Assembly (NCBI GenBank): GCA_017458085.1
Contig: JAFTGE010000008.1
Coordinates: forward strand, 1-55,566
DNA: 55,566 nucleotides
Direction: 5' to 3'
DNA from: Oscillospiraceae bacterium
GTDB lineage: Bacteria; Bacillota; Clostridia; Oscillospirales; Oscillospiraceae
Notes under the pieces: generated by a model
Databases searched by the model: none
Told to the model about the DNA's origin: nothing
The model's input: only the letters and a program-made list of their open reading frames with translations
Translations under genes and position numbers: made by a program
Part shown: positions 44,254 to 51,078 of the stretch, piece by piece
How the letters are laid out: each line of letters opens with the position of its first letter
Numbering within the stretch: the first letter of the stretch is position 1

Positions 44254-44629
44254 GCTGCGCGACTGGCGCGAGATCAGCGCCGCCTACATCGAGCGGGGCA
44301 TGGACGAGCGGGCTGTCGCAGACGCCTTCGGCGTGGCCTACTGCGCGGTGCGGTCCCGGAGCGTTCGGGAGGACTGGCCGGGCAAGCGCACGGCCTTTCT
44401 CGACCAGACGAGGACGGCGGCCATGAACCGCGTGGCAGACAAGCTGCTGGGACGGATCGAGCAGACGCTGGATGAGAGCGGGAGCCTGGACGTGAAAGAC
44501 CTCAAGGCGGTGACCGGGGCGCTCAAGGAGCTGCGCGAATGGCAGAGCGAGGGGCAAAAGGACACGCCGACTGCCGCCGGGCCGCTGACCGTGCGCTTTA
44601 TGGGAGAGACGGAGGAGTTGAGCCGATGA
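44240..44629 (+). CDS. Terminase small subunit
   Basis: A 129-residue protein with an N-terminal helix-turn-helix (WREISAAYIERGMDERAVADAFGVAYCAVRSRSVREDW) that fits DNA recognition by TerS, and a helical C-terminus. It overlaps terL by 4 bp. Assignment rests on the HTH, size and position. Confidence 0.72.
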   Translation: MPTNKLRDWREISAAYIERGMDERAVADAFGVAYCAVRSRSVREDWPGKRTAFLDQTRTAAMNRVADKLLGRIEQTLDESGSLDVKDLKAVTGALKELREWQSEGQKDTPTAAGPLTVRFMGETEELSR

Positions 44630-46053
44630 GCGCGGAGCTGAAGCTGCCGCCGCCGAGCGAGAAGCAGAAGCTGTTTCTGCGCGATGAGCACAAGTACGTG
44701 GGCTACGGCGGCGCCCGCGGCGGCGGGAAAAGCTGGGCGGTGCGGGTCAAGGCGGTGCTGCTGTGCCTGCGCTACGCGGGCATCAAGGTGATGATCGTAC
44801 GAAAAACCTATCCCGAATTGCAGGAAAACCACATCCTGCCGCTGTGCCAGATGCTGGGCTGCTACGCGGAGGGCGAGGAAAAGCTCGCCGACTATCACGA
44901 TGGAAAAAAGCACATCGTCTTTCCCAACGGCAGCAGGATTTTGTTCCGCTATCTCGACAACGACCGGGATGCGCTGCGCTTTCAGGGTACCGAGGTGGAC
45001 GTGCTGTTCGTAGATGAGGCCACGCAGCAGAGCGAGGAGAACATGGAGAAGCTGCGGGCCTGCGTGCGCGGCGTCAACGACTTCCCCAAGCGGATCTACT
45101 ACACCTGCAACCCCGGCGGCGAGGGCCACGGCTGGGTCAAGCGCCTGTTCATCGACCGGCGCTTCAAGGCCGGAGAGGAGCCGGAGGAGCACAGCTTCAT
45201 CCAGGCGCTGATCATGGACAACCACGCCCTGATGAAAAGCGACCCCGACTACATCAAACGGCTGGAGGCACTGCCGCCCAAGCTGCGCGACGCCTGGCTC
45301 TACGGCAGCTGGGATCAGTTCGAGGGACAGTTTTTCGAGGATTTCCGGACAGAGCCCGATCTGCGGCAGGCCCGCGAACACGGATGCGAGCTGTCAGAGG
45401 AGGAGCTCAAGGCGCAGGGACGCTGGTGCCATGTGATCGCGCCGCTGGATCTGACGGCAGGCGCAAGGCGCGGCTGGAGCATCGTGCGAAGCTACGACTT
45501 CGGCTACGGCAAGCCCTTCTCCTGCGCGTGGTGGGCGGTGGATTACGACGGGGTGATCTACCGAATCCTGGAGCTGTACGGCTGCACAGGCACGCCAAAC
45601 GAGGGCGTGCGCTGGACGCCGGATCAGCAGTTTCGGGAGATCGCGCGCATCGAGCGGGAGCACCCCTGGCTGCGGGGAAAACGGATCGACGGTGTGGCCG
45701 ATCCCGCTATCTGGGACTCGAGCCGCGGCGAGAGCATCGCGGAAACCGCGGCACGGTACGGGCTGTATTTCGTGCCCGGTGACAACAACCGCATCCCCGG
45801 CTGGATGCAGTGCCACTACCGGCTGCAGTTTGACAACGAGGGCTACAGCCGCATGTATGTGTTCGAGGGCTGCGATGCCTTCATCCGCACCATCCCGGAA
45901 ATGCAGTACCACCGGACAATCCCGGAGGACCTCGACAGCGAGCGCGAGGATCACGTGGCCGACGAATGGCGATACCTCTGCATGTCGCGGCCCATCACAC
46001 CGCTCAGGCCGACGGAGGAAAAGAGCTTCTTCAACGATCCGCTCAAGCGGTGA
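44626..46053 (+). CDS. Phage terminase large subunit
   Basis: The DNA-packaging motor. The 475-residue product has Walker A GGARGGGKSW (about 28-37), Walker B DVLFVDEAT (about 125-133), the coupling segment YYTCNPGGEGHGW, and nuclease-domain acids in SYDFGYGKPFSCAWW and DGVADPAIWDSSRG. ATG 44626 overlaps the TerS stop. It resembles the PBSX/P22-like terminase families. Confidence 0.93.
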   Translation: MSAELKLPPPSEKQKLFLRDEHKYVGYGGARGGGKSWAVRVKAVLLCLRYAGIKVMIVRKTYPELQENHILPLCQMLGCYAEGEEKLADYHDGKKHIVFPNGSRILFRYLDNDRDALRFQGTEVDVLFVDEATQQSEENMEKLRACVRGVNDFPKRIYYTCNPGGEGHGWVKRLFIDRRFKAGEEPEEHSFIQALIMDNHALMKSDPDYIKRLEALPPKLRDAWLYGSWDQFEGQFFEDFRTEPDLRQAREHGCELSEEELKAQGRWCHVIAPLDLTAGARRGWSIVRSYDFGYGKPFSCAWWAVDYDGVIYRILELYGCTGTPNEGVRWTPDQQFREIARIEREHPWLRGKRIDGVADPAIWDSSRGESIAETAARYGLYFVPGDNNRIPGWMQCHYRLQFDNEGYSRMYVFEGCDAFIRTIPEMQYHRTIPEDLDSEREDHVADEWRYLCMSRPITPLRPTEEKSFFNDPLKR

Positions 46054-46127
46054 GGAAATGCTGCGGGGCGTTAAGGACGCTGCCCCTACGGAGAGACGGT
46101 GGGGATGTTTACAAATAAGGAAAGGGA

Positions 46128-47993
46128 ATGGAAAAGCTTATGGATCAGGTGACAGCGCTGCCGGTGGATGAGAGACGGCTGGCAGAATTTACGAGAGTTT
46201 TACACAAATACAAGGCCGGGAAGGCCAGCGTGGAACGCCGCACCGTGGCGGCGGAAAACTGGTGGAAGCTGCGCAATACCGCCGAGGAGCGCAAGAGCAC
46301 GGAGGGGATCGGAGGCTTCCAGGCCGTGTCCGGCTGGCTGCACAATGTGATTGTGTCCAAGCACGCCGACGCCATGGACGCCTTCCCCGAGCCCAATATC
46401 CTGCCCCGGGAACCGGACGATCGGCCGGAGGCAAGCATCCTGTCCAAGATCATTCCGGTGATTTTGGAGCACAACGAGTTTGAGCGGGTTTACTCCGAAT
46501 GCATGTGGCAGAAGCTCAAGACGGGAACGGGCGTGTACAAGATCTGCTGGGACCCGGAAAAGGCCGACGGCCTGGGGGACATCTCCATCGAGCGGGTCGA
46601 TCTGCTCAATGTGTTCTGGGAGCCGGGCGTGCAGGATATCCAGGACAGCCGCTATTTCTTCCACACGACGATGGAGGACAACGACAGCCTGACAGAGCAG
46701 TACCCCCAGCTGAAGGGAAGCCTGAAGAACCCCGGCTTTGCCGCGACGCGCTTTGTATACGACGACGCGGTGTCCACCGAGGGAAAGACCACGGTCATCG
46801 ACGTCTACTATAAAAAACGCGAGGGCATGACGACGGTGCTGCACTACTGCAAATACGCGGGCAACACCGTGCTGTATGCCACCGAGAACGAGGCCGCTGC
46901 GCGCGCAATGGAAGGGGAAGCCGTCCCCGGCAGCGCGGGGATTTATGACCATGGGCAATACCCCTTCGTGTTCGACAGCCTGTTTCCCGTGGAGGGAAGC
47001 CCCTGCGGGTACGGATTCATCGATCTGTGCCGCAACAGCCAGACCCAGATCGATCTGATGCAGACCGCCTTCCTGAAAAACACGATGGTCGGCTCAATGC
47101 CGCGCTACTTCCAGCGGGCCGACGGCGCCGTCAACGAGGAGGAGTTTTTGAACCTCTCCAACCCCATCGTACACGTCAGCGGCAACCTGGGCGAGGACAG
47201 CCTGCGCACGGTGGATTACCGACCGCTGAGCGGCAACTATCTGGAAATGCGCCGCAGCCTGATCAACGAGCTGCGCGAGACCTCCGGCAATACCGAGACA
47301 TCCACGGGACTGGTCAATGCCGGGGTGACGGCGGCCTCGGCCATCGCAGCGCTGCAGGAGGCCAGCGGCAAGGGCAGCCGCGACGCCACCCGCGCAAGCT
47401 ACCGCGTCTACGCCAGGATCGTCGGGCTCTGCATCGAGCTGATCCGGCAGTTTTACGATCTGCCGCGGCAGTTTCGGATCACGGGAAGGCTGGGCATCGA
47501 GCAGTTTGTAAGCTACGACAACCGCGGCTTACAGCCCCAGCCGCTGGGGATGATCGGAGATGTCGATCTCGGACTGCGCCAGCCGGTATTTGACATCCGG
47601 GTGATTCCGCAGAAAAGCAGCTCCTACACAAGACTGACCCAGAACGAGCTGGCACTGCAGTTTTATCAGATGGGCTTCTTCGCGCCGGGACAGGCGGATC
47701 AGGCACTGGCCTGCATGAGCATGATGGAGTTTGAGGGCAAGGACGAGCTGATGCAGCAGCTGGCCTACAACGGAACCATGCAGCGGGAGCTTGCCATGTT
47801 CCAGCAGTACGCGCTGGCCCTGACCCAAAAGTACGAGCCCGAACGCGCCGAGGCACTGATGGCGGGAATCACGGGAGACAAGAGCGTGGCCGCACACGCG
47901 CGGGTCAAGGCCCGCACCGCCGGGGAGACGACAAGGCTTGAACGCGTGCGGGCCAAAACCGGGAGCGTGGCCCAGCCGGGAGGCGGACGATGA
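46128..47993 (+). CDS. P22-like portal protein
   Basis: The head-vertex dodecamer through which DNA enters. The 621-residue product resembles the P22-type portal family (residues such as EENWWKLRNT..., YKICWDPEKADGLGDISIERVDLLNVFWEPG, SQTQIDLMQTAFLKNTMVGSMPRYF, and ETSGNTETSTGLVNAGVTAASAIAALQEASGKGSRDATR). This family belongs to short-tailed phages. ATG 46128 follows AAGGAAAGGG. The gap before it contains a GC hairpin of unknown role. It overlaps the protease gene by 4 bp. Confidence 0.85.
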   Translation: MEKLMDQVTALPVDERRLAEFTRVLHKYKAGKASVERRTVAAENWWKLRNTAEERKSTEGIGGFQAVSGWLHNVIVSKHADAMDAFPEPNILPREPDDRPEASILSKIIPVILEHNEFERVYSECMWQKLKTGTGVYKICWDPEKADGLGDISIERVDLLNVFWEPGVQDIQDSRYFFHTTMEDNDSLTEQYPQLKGSLKNPGFAATRFVYDDAVSTEGKTTVIDVYYKKREGMTTVLHYCKYAGNTVLYATENEAAARAMEGEAVPGSAGIYDHGQYPFVFDSLFPVEGSPCGYGFIDLCRNSQTQIDLMQTAFLKNTMVGSMPRYFQRADGAVNEEEFLNLSNPIVHVSGNLGEDSLRTVDYRPLSGNYLEMRRSLINELRETSGNTETSTGLVNAGVTAASAIAALQEASGKGSRDATRASYRVYARIVGLCIELIRQFYDLPRQFRITGRLGIEQFVSYDNRGLQPQPLGMIGDVDLGLRQPVFDIRVIPQKSSSYTRLTQNELALQFYQMGFFAPGQADQALACMSMMEFEGKDELMQQLAYNGTMQRELAMFQQYALALTQKYEPERAEALMAGITGDKSVAAHARVKARTAGETTRLERVRAKTGSVAQPGGGR

Positions 47994-48295
47994 CCACGGT
48001 GCGGTATGACCGGCGGGAGCTGACGCTGCGCATGGAGGGACACGCCGGGGCAGACGAGAAGGGAAAAGATCCGGTCTGCGCGGCGCTGAGCATGCTGATG
48101 CTGACACTGGAGAGACGGATGCTGGATCAGGCGGAGCAGATGCTGCCGACCATCAGCCGCGGGCCGGGACGATTTTTGATCCGCTGCCGACCCGGCGACA
48201 GCTGGGAGAGAAGCTGCCGCGAGAGCTTCGAGACGATTTTTGCGGGACTGACCCTGCTGGCAGAGGAGCGGCCCGACTGCGTGCAGATTCAATAG
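47990..48295 (+). CDS. prp: Prp (YsxB)-family cysteine protease encoded in the phage head cluster
   Basis: Prp removes the N-terminal extension of ribosomal protein L27 in Firmicutes; it also processes capsid and scaffold proteins of some staphylococcal phages. The 101-residue product has EGHAGADEKGKDPVCAALSML, with His18 and Cys30 at the same 12-residue spacing as the catalytic pair of the family, and the C-terminal FETIFAGLTLLAEE helix. It lies between portal and capsid genes, where other phages have the prohead protease, and the capsid protein begins with a Prp-type site. It is probably the maturation protease. Confidence 0.85.
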   Translation: MTTVRYDRRELTLRMEGHAGADEKGKDPVCAALSMLMLTLERRMLDQAEQMLPTISRGPGRFLIRCRPGDSWERSCRESFETIFAGLTLLAEERPDCVQIQ

Positions 48296-48304
48296 GAGGA
48301 TTGC

Positions 48305-49144
48305 ATGAGCACAAACGAGATAGAAAAGGAACAGACAGACGCCTACGGCGCAACCATGCAGGCGCTGCGCCAGGTGCAGGATGCGCTGCCGGATTTCACG
48401 TCCAGCTATGACGGGGAAATCAACCGGCTCTATGAGCAGATCACCAACCGAAAGGAGTTTCGGTACGATGTAAACAGCGACCCGCTGTACAACATGTACC
48501 GGGACCGCTATGTCAGCGACGGGCGCATGGCCATGCGCGACACCATGGGACAGGCCGCAAGTCTGACAGGCGGCTACGGCTCCAGCTACGGACAGGCCGT
48601 GGGACAGCAGCAGTACGACGCCTATTTGCAGAAGCTCAGCGCCCTGATGCCCGAGCTGTATACGGCGGCCTATGACCGGTATGCGGCGGAGGGCGACAGA
48701 CTCGCCGGACAGCTGGACACGGCAGCAAAGCTGGCCGACAAGGAATACGGACGGGCCAAGGACAAGCAGAATGCGGCCATCAGTCTGGAGAAGGAGAGCT
48801 ACAACCGAAGGTGGCAGAGCTACCAGAGCCTGATCGACATCATCTTCAAGAGCGGCTATCAGCCGAGCAGCGAGGAGCTGGAGGCGGCCGGGATGAGCCA
48901 GGAACAGGCGGAGGCGCTGCGCTATGAATACCTGCGGGCCAACAAGCTGCTGCCGACAGGCGGCGGCTCCTCCGGCGGAGGCGGCGCTTATTGGGGCGGT
49001 TCGTCCTCCGCGAAAAAGAGCGGGAAGGAAGACACTACGACCAGCAAGGAGAAAATGCTGCTGGCCGGTAATGCGAGAGGCGCAAGCAAGACCAGCAAGA
49101 CCAGCAAAACCCGCAGAAGCGGCTTTACCGATCGAGTACAGTGA
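48305..49144 (+). CDS. Phage structural protein, possibly an internal or ejection protein
   Basis: The 279-residue product is helical and Tyr/Gln-rich in the first 200 residues (NRLYEQITNRKEFRYDVNSDPLYNMYRDRYVSDGRMAM, repeated Ala/Tyr helices), then has a flexible Gly/Ser tail and a basic end (SKTSKTSKTRRSGF). ATG 48305 follows AGGAGGATT. It lies between the protease and scaffold genes. Its composition fits a pore or ejection protein of short-tailed phages, but no family was recognised. Confidence 0.6.
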   Translation: MSTNEIEKEQTDAYGATMQALRQVQDALPDFTSSYDGEINRLYEQITNRKEFRYDVNSDPLYNMYRDRYVSDGRMAMRDTMGQAASLTGGYGSSYGQAVGQQQYDAYLQKLSALMPELYTAAYDRYAAEGDRLAGQLDTAAKLADKEYGRAKDKQNAAISLEKESYNRRWQSYQSLIDIIFKSGYQPSSEELEAAGMSQEQAEALRYEYLRANKLLPTGGGSSGGGGAYWGGSSSAKKSGKEDTTTSKEKMLLAGNARGASKTSKTSKTRRSGFTDRVQ

Positions 49145-49209
49145 CGCCCTTTATGCCCCGCCGCGGAGGGGATTTTAATCAATAAAGGTGAACAGACGGA
49201 GGCAAAACC

Positions 49210-49935
49210 ATGGAAACGGAAAAGCAGGAGCAGATCACAGGCGAAGAGGCGGAGCCTCTGGAATCGGGCGTAACGGCTGCCGACGCCGGGCAGACAGAGG
49301 GGGAGGCGGCCGCTACCCGTCCCAGCTGGGAGGAAATTTTGGCCGACCCCGAATACAAAAGCCGCTATGACGCGGCGGTGCAGGACATCGTGCAGCGCCG
49401 GCTGCGCGGCAGGCATGAGGCCGAGGACAGGCTTGCAAGCCTGGAGCCGGTTTTGCAGGCGCTGGGAGAGGTCTTCGGCGTGGATACGGCGGACAGCGAA
49501 GCGCTGTGCCGGGAAATCTACCGAAGCCGGGAGAGAAGCACGCTGTCGGAGCAGCGCGTGCGGGAGCATCTGGCGGCGCTGTGGCAGGAGAGCGAGAGCC
49601 TGCGCGAGCGGCTGCCGGAGTTCGACCTGGAGCGGGAGATGGAAAACCCCGTCTTCCTGCGCCTGACCGCGCCCCACAGCGGCGTCGGCCTGGAGGACGC
49701 CTACTACGCGCTGCACCGGGGCGCAATCGGCAAGGCCGCGGCGGAGGAGAGTCTCGCCGCGCTCAGCCGCAGTATGCGCATCCAGGAGCGACGGCCCCGG
49801 GAGATCCGCGCCGGCCAGCCCGGCACGGGCTTTGCCCGCGATGCCAGAAGTATGTCCCGCGAGGAGCGGGAGGCACTGAAAAAACGCATCCTTGAGGCCA
49901 AGGCCCAGGGGAGAAAGCTCGGCATCGGGGAATGA
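49210..49935 (+). CDS. Scaffold-like phage protein
   Basis: The 241-residue product is highly charged and mostly helical. It has an acidic N-terminus, a central SWEEILADPEYKSRYDAAVQDIVQRRLRGRHEAEDRL segment often found in phage scaffold proteins of Firmicutes, and a basic C-terminus (EERE...KKRILEAKAQGRKLG). It is directly upstream of the capsid gene. No Prp-type site is present at its N-terminus. Confidence 0.75.
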   Translation: METEKQEQITGEEAEPLESGVTAADAGQTEGEAAATRPSWEEILADPEYKSRYDAAVQDIVQRRLRGRHEAEDRLASLEPVLQALGEVFGVDTADSEALCREIYRSRERSTLSEQRVREHLAALWQESESLRERLPEFDLEREMENPVFLRLTAPHSGVGLEDAYYALHRGAIGKAAAEESLAALSRSMRIQERRPREIRAGQPGTGFARDARSMSREEREALKKRILEAKAQGRKLGIGE

Positions 49936-50010
49936 GCGGGGAGGCTCCTCACCGCCGCGCGCCGGCTTCCTCCCCAGGGAAGCCAAGAAAACAAAGGAAA
50001 GGAAAATGAA

Positions 50011-51078
50011 ATGAACAAGACTTTTGATTTGCAGTTCTTTGCCGAGGCGGGCAGCCTCGTCAACGCTACCGGCGGCTTCGTCAATGCCGCCACCGGTGAA
50101 ACCGCCGCCTTCGACGACAGCCACAGCCTGTCGCCGGAGCTGAAGGCCTTCTACGATACCGAGCTGCTGGAGAATGCGCGCACGGAGCTGTTTTATGCGC
50201 AGTTTGCCAAGCGCCAGCCGCTGCCTGCCAACCACCACGGCAGCGTGGAATGGCGCAAGTGGAACACCTTTGACCGCGCCGCCAAGCTCACCGAGGGCGT
50301 CATCCCCACCGGGCAGAAGTTCGGCGTCACCGCAGTGACCGGCACGGTGGATCAGTACGGCACCTACACCGCTATCACCGACAAGCTGGAGCTGCGCGCC
50401 TACGACGATGTGATCCTCGGCGCGACCGAGGAGATGGGCGCCTCCGCCGCCGAGACCCAGGAGGCCCTGATCCGCGACGCGCTGCTGACCAACACCAATG
50501 TCCTCTACTGCGACAAGGTCAAGGTCTCCGACGGCTCGCGCACCAAGGTCGCCCAGGAGAGCGAGATGGTCGAGAGCGCCGCAGAGCACTGCCACATCAG
50601 CGCCGAGGCCATCAACGAGGCCGTGACCATCATGAAGAAAAACCGCGTGCCCCGTATCAACGGCCGCTATTACGCCGTGATCCATCCCTCGGTGGCCCAC
50701 GATCTGCGCCAGGACGAGGCCTGGATCGAGGCGCACAAGTACGCCTCCCCCGAGGAGCTGTTCAACGGCGAGATCGGTGAGTTGCACGGCGTGCGCTTTG
50801 TGGAGAATGTCTTCGCCCCGGTCATCAAGGGCGAGGGCGATAGCTTCGCCAAGTACGCCACCTACGTCTTCGGCAAGGACTCCTATGGCATTATCGATCC
50901 GGAGGGCGGAGCCCTGGAAATGATCATCCACGACAAGGGCGAGATCGGCGGCCCGCTGAACCAGTTCAGCACCATTGGTTATAAATTTGAGACCAATGGC
51001 GCCACCATTCTCTACCCCGAGCGTCTGCTGCGGATCATGTCCACCAGCTCCTTCAGCCTGACGGACGCGGCCAATTGA
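50011..51078 (+). CDS. N4-gp56-type major capsid protein with Prp-type N-terminal site
   Basis: The 355-residue protein shows the layout of the N4-gp56 capsid family (AKRQPLPANHHGSVEWRKWNTFDRAAKLTEG, DKLELRAYDDVILGATEEMG, YYAVIHPSVAHDLRQDEAW, ending YPERLLRIMSTSSF). Residues 5-11, FDLQFFA, match the L27/phage consensus cleaved by Prp, so cleavage after Ala11 would leave a mature protein of about 344 residues. ATG 50011 follows AAAGGAAAGG. Codon use is strongly C/G-ending, suggesting high expression. Confidence 0.9.
   Translation: MNKTFDLQFFAEAGSLVNATGGFVNAATGETAAFDDSHSLSPELKAFYDTELLENARTELFYAQFAKRQPLPANHHGSVEWRKWNTFDRAAKLTEGVIPTGQKFGVTAVTGTVDQYGTYTAITDKLELRAYDDVILGATEEMGASAAETQEALIRDALLTNTNVLYCDKVKVSDGSRTKVAQESEMVESAAEHCHISAEAINEAVTIMKKNRVPRINGRYYAVIHPSVAHDLRQDEAWIEAHKYASPEELFNGEIGELHGVRFVENVFAPVIKGEGDSFAKYATYVFGKDSYGIIDPEGGALEMIIHDKGEIGGPLNQFSTIGYKFETNGATILYPERLLRIMSTSSFSLTDAAN

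Follow-up and report, generated by a model that had tools for sequence, protein, structure and literature searches.

A prophage-encoded Prp protease predicted to trim the N-terminus of its own major capsid protein in a lineage apparently lacking host Prp

We analysed a 55,566-nucleotide stretch from an Oscillospiraceae gut bacterium (contig JAFTGE010000008.1 of assembly GCA_017458085.1; hereafter the window), in which the head-gene cluster of a prophage includes a gene for Prp, a cysteine protease whose host-encoded counterparts cut ribosomal protein L27 in many bacteria. Our analysis indicates that this prophage very probably has a self-sufficient module for capsid and scaffold maturation, in which its own Prp trims the capsid protein and no host Prp is needed. 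In the mechanism that we propose, the prophage Prp would cut the N-terminus of the major capsid protein after Phe10, releasing a peptide of 10 residues and leaving a shell protein that starts at Ala11. The same protease would also trim the scaffold protein in many related phages, and the module would work without a host Prp, which is apparently missing from the host lineage. The evidence obtained here consists of the enzyme family, the conserved catalytic residues, the position of the gene, the site on the capsid protein, the finding of neither a host Prp nor an L27 extension, and the joint presence, joint change and co-variation of enzyme and site.

The prophage Prp and the predicted cut site of its capsid protein

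The open reading frame (ORF) at 47990..48295 on the + strand encodes a C108-type cysteine protease of 101 aa, with GHA at residues 17-19 and His18 and Cys30 as the predicted catalytic pair. The protein matches PF04327 (Peptidase_Prp, MEROPS C108) with 43.9 bits and an E value of 2.8e-11, exceeding the curated cut-off of 27, and it also matches PHROG 4478 “peptidase” (E 1.6e-11). The catalytic pattern GHA...DxVCAxxS is present (His18, Asp27, Cys30, and Ser34), as in Staphylococcus aureus Prp, and a profile built from 20 phage Prps recovers the S. aureus protein (4peo/7kld) with an E value of 4.6e-13 in an alignment that spans the catalytic GHA...CA region. The Cys is conserved in 91/91 aligned Prps and the His in 90/91, in an alignment of 90 phage proteins and one host protein, most of which were originally found by the GHA...C pattern. 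The match to the NCBIfam equivalogs for ribosomal Prp is weak (best 25.1 bits, below the cut-off of 133), and the gene is found between portal and head genes, not between rplU and rpmA. The original prediction, made by a model from the sequence alone, had proposed a Prp/YsxB homologue with His18 and Cys30 between the portal and capsid genes, brought by the phage in the position of a prohead protease and matched by a Prp-type site in the capsid protein. It had also suggested a profile search of 47990-48295, and the family match above the cut-off bears this proposal out.

The capsid gene lies at 50011..51078 (+) and encodes a major capsid protein of the N4-gp56 family (TIGR04387, 184.8 bits against a cut-off of 60; PHROG 1357). 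Its N-terminus is MNKTFDLQFFAEAG and reads MNKTFDLQFF/AEAG, where the slash, here and below, marks the known or expected cut. This is an L27-type Prp site, with LQFF/A predicted at residues 7-11 (50029..50043, +) from the sequence itself, the site rule, and the presence of the site in relatives. For comparison, Bacillus subtilis L27 starts with MLRLDLQFF/ASKK (PMC9405229), and cleavage between F and A holds for the sites of phage 80alpha and of L27 (PMC5744158, PMC9405229). The cut in the window protein would be expected between codon 10 (50038-50040) and codon 11 (50041-50043), that is, at F10/A11. The capsid site that had been proposed is indeed present, but the mature protein had been predicted to start at Glu12; because of the F/A rule of 80alpha (PMC5744158) and L27, we place the predicted start at Ala11 instead.

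The strict form of the site in the 94 related loci described below was [LIVY]Q.[FY][AG], which was satisfied by 66 of the 94 capsid arms (65 with Prp, plus locus L197) and, by chance, by 0.2% of segments of equal length from the remainder of the same 94 proteins. A slightly wider form, [LIVYM]Q.[FYL][AGST] in the first 40 residues, was used for the sets of viral and genome contigs.

Joint presence and joint change of site and protease

Site and protease occur together in related phages. We scored 117 capsid loci and kept the 94 with a portal gene in the same stretch, while 23 were dropped for lack of a portal. Using a broad site pattern, 86 of these loci had both site and Prp and six had neither (L135, L136, L145, L177, L192, and L209). 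One locus had a site without Prp (L197), and its contig ends where its relative L198 carries prp; one was scored as having Prp without a site (L120), which is a parsing error, as inspection shows LQRF/A. Two further loci were considered as cases of a site without Prp and rejected, namely L204, where a diverged Prp ORF (E 7.7e-4) lies between portal and scaffold, and L141, where a diverged Prp ORF (E 3.7e-7) accompanies the site LHLF/E.

Among 80 viral contigs retrieved by Prp, 56 had a portal and a readable capsid start, and 54 of these had the broad site; in the remaining two (L380 and L410) the site is visible on inspection. Another 80 viral contigs were retrieved by the capsid protein, 58 of them with a portal, and the strict site gave 53 with both, none with the site only, three with Prp only, and two with neither (L483 and L490). 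All three Prp-only contigs do bear a site and reflect parsing errors (L427, L460, and L469, the last being the L380 contig). With the broad pattern, a VTAFD match off the usual place makes L483 a case of a site without Prp. These viral sets overlap, with 10 of the 80 capsid-retrieved loci already in the Prp search and further contigs common to both. Lastly, 80 genome contigs, 55 with a portal, gave 48 with both under the strict site, three with the site only (L303, which is the L197 contig, L336, and L339), none with Prp only, and four with neither (L292 and L326, the contigs of L192 and L177, and L338 and L340, which have near-sites); this set largely overlaps the 117 loci.

The two traits also change together on a capsid tree of 155 rows, which was built with the N-terminal arm excluded, L197 left out, and the labels of L120, L427, L460, and L469 corrected by eye beforehand. 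A minimum of seven changes is required for the site and eight for Prp, and Prp changes with the site in 5/5 supported independent pairs (seven on all branches). The L177 capsid is 76% identical to the window capsid, yet it has neither site nor Prp, and both L177 and L192, which lacks both as well, adjoin Prp-bearing relatives on the tree. Discordant rows are limited to four Eubacterium prophage loci from three genomes (L336, L338, L339, and L340), for which no Prp was found in the retrieved stretch while the site is retained, L338 and L340 being near-matches that were scored as sites. Their hosts have a Prp linked to a long L27 that starts with MLKLNIQLF/AHKKG, and the prophage capsid arms read MEKLNLQLF/AHTY, MEKINIQLH/AHSY, MEKINIQLF/AHTY, and MLKLNTQLF/AHTY. 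His occupies P2' in 4/4 of these Prp-free loci versus 0/86 arms of phages with their own Prp. We read these arms as probable mimicry of L27 by phages that borrow the host Prp.

Scaffold sites and protease-scaffold fusions

Homologues of the window scaffold in other phages have Prp sites or are fused to Prp. Prp and scaffold profiles match a single open frame in five of 92 Prp ORFs (L115, L119, L120, L123, and L125), and the fusion junction has a site (LQLF/A or LCRF/D) that agrees in P1' class with the capsid site of the respective phage. Because several of the fused frames have a possible start codon near the junction, Prp and scaffold may also be translated separately.

A site was present in 54 of 105 scaffolds examined. 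When scaffold and capsid sites of the same phage are compared, P3 (Q or not) agrees in 52/54 and the P1' class (A/S/T or D/G/E) in 47/54, figures that include scaffold sites picked by a score favouring Q and F and a contribution from shared ancestry; one of the two P3 disagreements is a misreading of the L176 capsid site (YAQFA for GLQFFA). Six changes of the P1' class are seen on a tree of 86 Prps, compared to a minimum of 12 in 200 shuffles, and shared ancestry adds to this figure as well. Judging from these sites and fusions, Prp would trim the scaffold as well as the capsid in many related phages.

Prp and L27 in the host genome and genus

The host genome (2.67 Mb, 93.5% complete) gave a single Prp match in a profile search, the phage copy, and no host Prp was found besides it. 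Its L27 begins with MAHKKG, without a cleavable extension, and rplU and rpmA adjoin with no gene in between. Across 102 genomes of the genus, Prp is found in 58, at 62 places; 55 of these places were read and 53 have a portal or terminase gene within 6 kb, the other two being L159 and the contig start of L180. An L27 match is present in 54 of the 58 Prp genomes, but Prp and L27 share a contig for two Prp places only, where they are 63 and 64 kb apart. L27 was found in 91 of the 102 genomes; the 40 that were read are all short (40/40), and no Prp lies beside any of them (39 with at least 500 bases upstream). Genome by genome, 57 have both the capsid gene and Prp, nine the capsid gene only, one Prp only (G017, in which the contig ends near prp), and 35 neither. 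The nine capsid-only genomes are G332 and G030, whose capsids lack the site, G337, and six in which the capsid gene borders a contig edge or sits on a short contig (three of the six were not retrieved). For context, N4-gp56 type capsid genes above the cut-off occur in 66 of the 102 genomes of the genus and in 49 of 295 genomes drawn from the order.

A wider set of 106 L27 loci contained 55 short L27s without a linked Prp and 46 long ones with a linked Prp, at least four loci being counted twice under two handles and two short ones having no upstream sequence; three loci flagged as short with Prp (L500, L501, and L527) are parsing errors. Among the 55 is a locus from a Clostridia metagenome-assembled genome (MAG; L522:1483-1779) with an extended L27, MMILFRLFAHHKGG (LFRLF/AHHKG). 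Its rplU and rpmA genes are direct neighbours, and the extension may be a relic that outlasted a lost Prp. The site is also present in related capsid loci from MAGs labelled Bacteroidales and Bacteroidaceae (L294 and L301, the latter also with Prp), in which L27 is short; their placement may be the result of misbinning.

From these data, the host lineage appears to have no Prp of its own. This bears on the possibility that a host Prp does the cutting, with the phage copy being superfluous or serving another purpose. Cutting by the host enzyme is established for 80alpha and probable at the four Prp-free Eubacterium prophage loci, but with no host Prp found in the window's own genome, with nearly all Prp places read in the genus lying near portal or terminase genes, and with all L27s read there being short, we reject the host enzyme as the cutter for this genus as far as it was read and regard its involvement in the window prophage as exceedingly improbable. 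The phage Prp might instead act mainly on host proteins such as FlhB, a suggested target of Prp where bacteria have no long L27 (PMC9405229), or on another protein with a similar site. This is also very unlikely: the gene lies among head genes, Prp is fused to scaffolds in some phages, the enzyme changes jointly with the capsid site, and the host L27 here has no site.

Origin of the phage Prp

We built a tree of 164 Prps, 97 from phages and 67 from hosts. The host sample combines four PDB chains with sequences of a single order, among which some genes occur twice. When rooted on Thermotoga maritima, the 97 phage Prps form one clade with a support of 95. Seven members of this clade come from phages of Lactococcus, Oenococcus, Enterococcus, Brochothrix, and Latilactobacillus that had been cultured or induced, while the 67 host sequences (including the Streptococcus mutans, S. 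aureus, 2idl, and T. maritima chains) fall outside, with a host-side support of only 49. A single change separates the phage and host labels, compared to 45-54 changes in 20 label shuffles on a tree of 160 rows. The Prps of L204 and L141 and orf13 of phage Cp-1 (see below) are absent from these trees.

The original prediction had viewed the phage protein as a ribosome-maturation enzyme captured as a dedicated capsid maturase. A recent capture from a host with an rpmA-linked copy would fit the shared Prp family and site type, which are both those of L27, but for the hosts sampled here it is rejected on the Prp tree with its single phage/host change, and we consider it highly improbable. As the tree has only one such change, any transfer would be old and may have gone in either direction, which argues for an old phage lineage and not for capture from present hosts. 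The original proposal thus stands in its pairing of a phage-borne Prp with a capsid site, while a capture from hosts like the present ones is not supported and the cut position is corrected to F10/A11. It is tempting to speculate, although we think it improbable, that hosts lost prp and the L27 extension as an escape from phages relying on the host protease, that phage-borne Prp was the counter-move that kept L27-like capsid sites working in such hosts, and even that L27 trimming was derived from a phage capsid protease, for which the ancient divergence of the phage and host enzymes leaves room.

Does the cleavage matter for the phage?

Several points weigh against our interpretation. The cleavage, its position at F10/A11, and its help to assembly are what we infer from the sequences. 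The scaffold of the window prophage carries no Prp site. One locus (L203:699-2120, in genome G337) has a capsid protein with a Prp-type site, and no Prp was found in the search of its genome; about 20 kb of sequence upstream of it likewise yielded neither a portal nor a terminase gene. The broad site pattern was fixed after the sequences had been inspected and occurs by chance in 28% of cases per arm. Only five supported pairs are available, so that the floor of the sign test is p 0.0625, and when pairs are started from Prp, five of six change in the same direction and one has no change of the site. Most of the genomes are MAGs, the window's own is 93.5% complete, and the reading of Prp places in the genus covered 55 out of 62.

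In addition, 80alpha stays viable when its capsid protein is made uncleavable or pre-cleaved (PMC5744158), and the trimming may therefore be dispensable. This leads to the alternative that Prp cuts a real site only incidentally, with the N-terminal peptide serving assembly or folding and its removal hardly mattering. The 80alpha mutants are in line with it, as is the scaffold protein of that phage, the N-terminus of which is required but need not be cut (PMC5744158). On the other side, enzyme and site change together in all five supported pairs, the catalytic Cys and His are kept in nearly all aligned Prps, and the protease of Streptococcus phage Cp-1 is called essential for phage maturation in the title of a paper listed in PMC12445089. 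The joint changes and the kept catalytic residues suggest that selection keeps the cleavage itself. We therefore regard incidental cleavage as unlikely, though it deserves serious consideration, and favour the reading that trimming by the prophage Prp would contribute to capsid maturation.

If this is true, Prp would have a role of its own as a capsid and scaffold maturase widespread among phages, beyond that of a borrowed host ribosome enzyme. The phages described here offer natural pairs of Prp-dependent and Prp-free capsids (L177 versus its relatives) and natural protease-scaffold fusions, together with co-varying sites for the mapping of specificity. They also make the role of Prp cleavage for capsids testable in E. 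coli and in laboratory phages, for example Lactococcus TP712.

Organization of the head-gene cluster

The head genes occupy 44539-51078 in the order terL-portal-prp-ORF-putative scaffold-capsid, as read from ORFs and from Pfam, PHROG, and NCBIfam matches, and all are on the + strand. The large terminase subunit of the prophage is encoded at 44539..46053 (Pfam Terminase_3 and Terminase_6N, PHROG 2), and it is followed at 46128..47993 by a P22-type portal protein (Pfam P22_portal with 107.6 bits, PHROG 156), the stop codon of which overlaps the start codon region of prp by a shared stretch of four bases. Between prp and the putative scaffold gene, an ORF of 279 aa at 48305..49144 has no assigned function; it gave no Pfam match below 0.1 and no PHROG match. 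By gene-order comparison, both prp and this ORF are absent from the corresponding place in the relatives L177 and L192. The putative scaffold protein, at 49210..49935, is recognized by its position ahead of the capsid gene and matches PHROG 13908 (function unknown).

The spacing of these genes varies within the genus. In some prophages (G019, G349, G350, G390, and G341; loci L193:1-8028, L067/L195, L176, L162, and L200) the Prp and capsid genes are 13-24 kb apart on the same contig, and in L193 a MuF_C domain occurs ahead of the scaffold, in an open frame that spans 2676 aa or more.

Comparison with known systems

A parallel in site type is phage 80alpha, in which the host Prp cuts L27-like N-terminal sites on the capsid and scaffold proteins between F and A (PMC5744158, PMC9405229) and whose proteins stay uncleaved in E. 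coli (PMC9405229). Both phages have an L27-like capsid site, but 80alpha relies on the host enzyme and has no prohead protease, whereas the window prophage has a protease of its own in a genome where no host Prp was found. The original prediction had referred to the use of the host enzyme by 80alpha; in the present genome no host Prp was found, and L27 is short. The S. aureus Prp/YsxB protein (PDB 4peo/7kld) shares its Pfam family and catalytic motif with the window Prp. Host Prp/YsxB differs in that it is encoded beside rpmA, cuts L27, and falls outside the phage clade, and the window protein does not reach the NCBIfam equivalog cut-offs.

Streptococcus phage Cp-1 provides a precedent for a phage-encoded enzyme of this type. 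According to PMC12445089, where Martin, Lopez and Garcia 1998 is cited, Cp-1 encodes a C108 protease by which the major head protein loses 48 residues at its N-terminus. Of 12 Cp-1 proteins that we tested, orf13 matches the phage Prp profile (E 3.8e-8), and we take it to be the enzyme of the 1998 paper. Cp-1 and the window prophage both encode a C108/Prp-type enzyme, which in the window prophage is predicted to act on the capsid N-terminus, but Cp-1 belongs to another phage group, a longer piece is removed, and there is no L27-type LQxF/A site at the start of its head protein.

A Prp gene close to the portal gene and preceding the head genes is also present in all eight cultured or induced siphophages that we examined, namely Lactococcus TP712 and PLgT-1, Oenococcus phiS13 and Krappator27, Enterococcus phiFL3A, Brochothrix BL3, Latilactobacillus P3, and Dorea DO134P1. 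These differ from the window prophage in having other capsid proteins, but LQxF-type sites are present on scaffold and capsid in 8/8 (with F/S in the TP712 capsid and F/T in the Dorea capsid). Their prp genes are labelled as peptidase, ribosomal protein, unknown, or hypothetical, or are not annotated; in DO134P1 a prp-like open frame (L421:7983-8276) lies unannotated between two annotated genes. The major tail proteins of phiFL3A and BL3 also have Prp-like starts, MKKLDLQLL/A (L497:9917-10279) and MNKIKMDLQKF/A (L498:9160-9481), and tails may therefore be trimmed too.

A literature search for phage-encoded Prp acting on capsids returned, in the parts of the papers available, only mentions of Cp-1 (PMC9405229, PMC12445089), and a paper on a Shewanella phage names a protease ORF and mentions Prps (PMC10846135). 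Given the Cp-1 precedent and the eight siphophages with Prp and sites, the window prophage belongs to a kind that is already known. What is new, as far as the literature was searched, is the pairing of Prp with an L27-type site across many phages, its independence in a host apparently without Prp, and the joint changes, fusions, and co-variation of enzyme and site.

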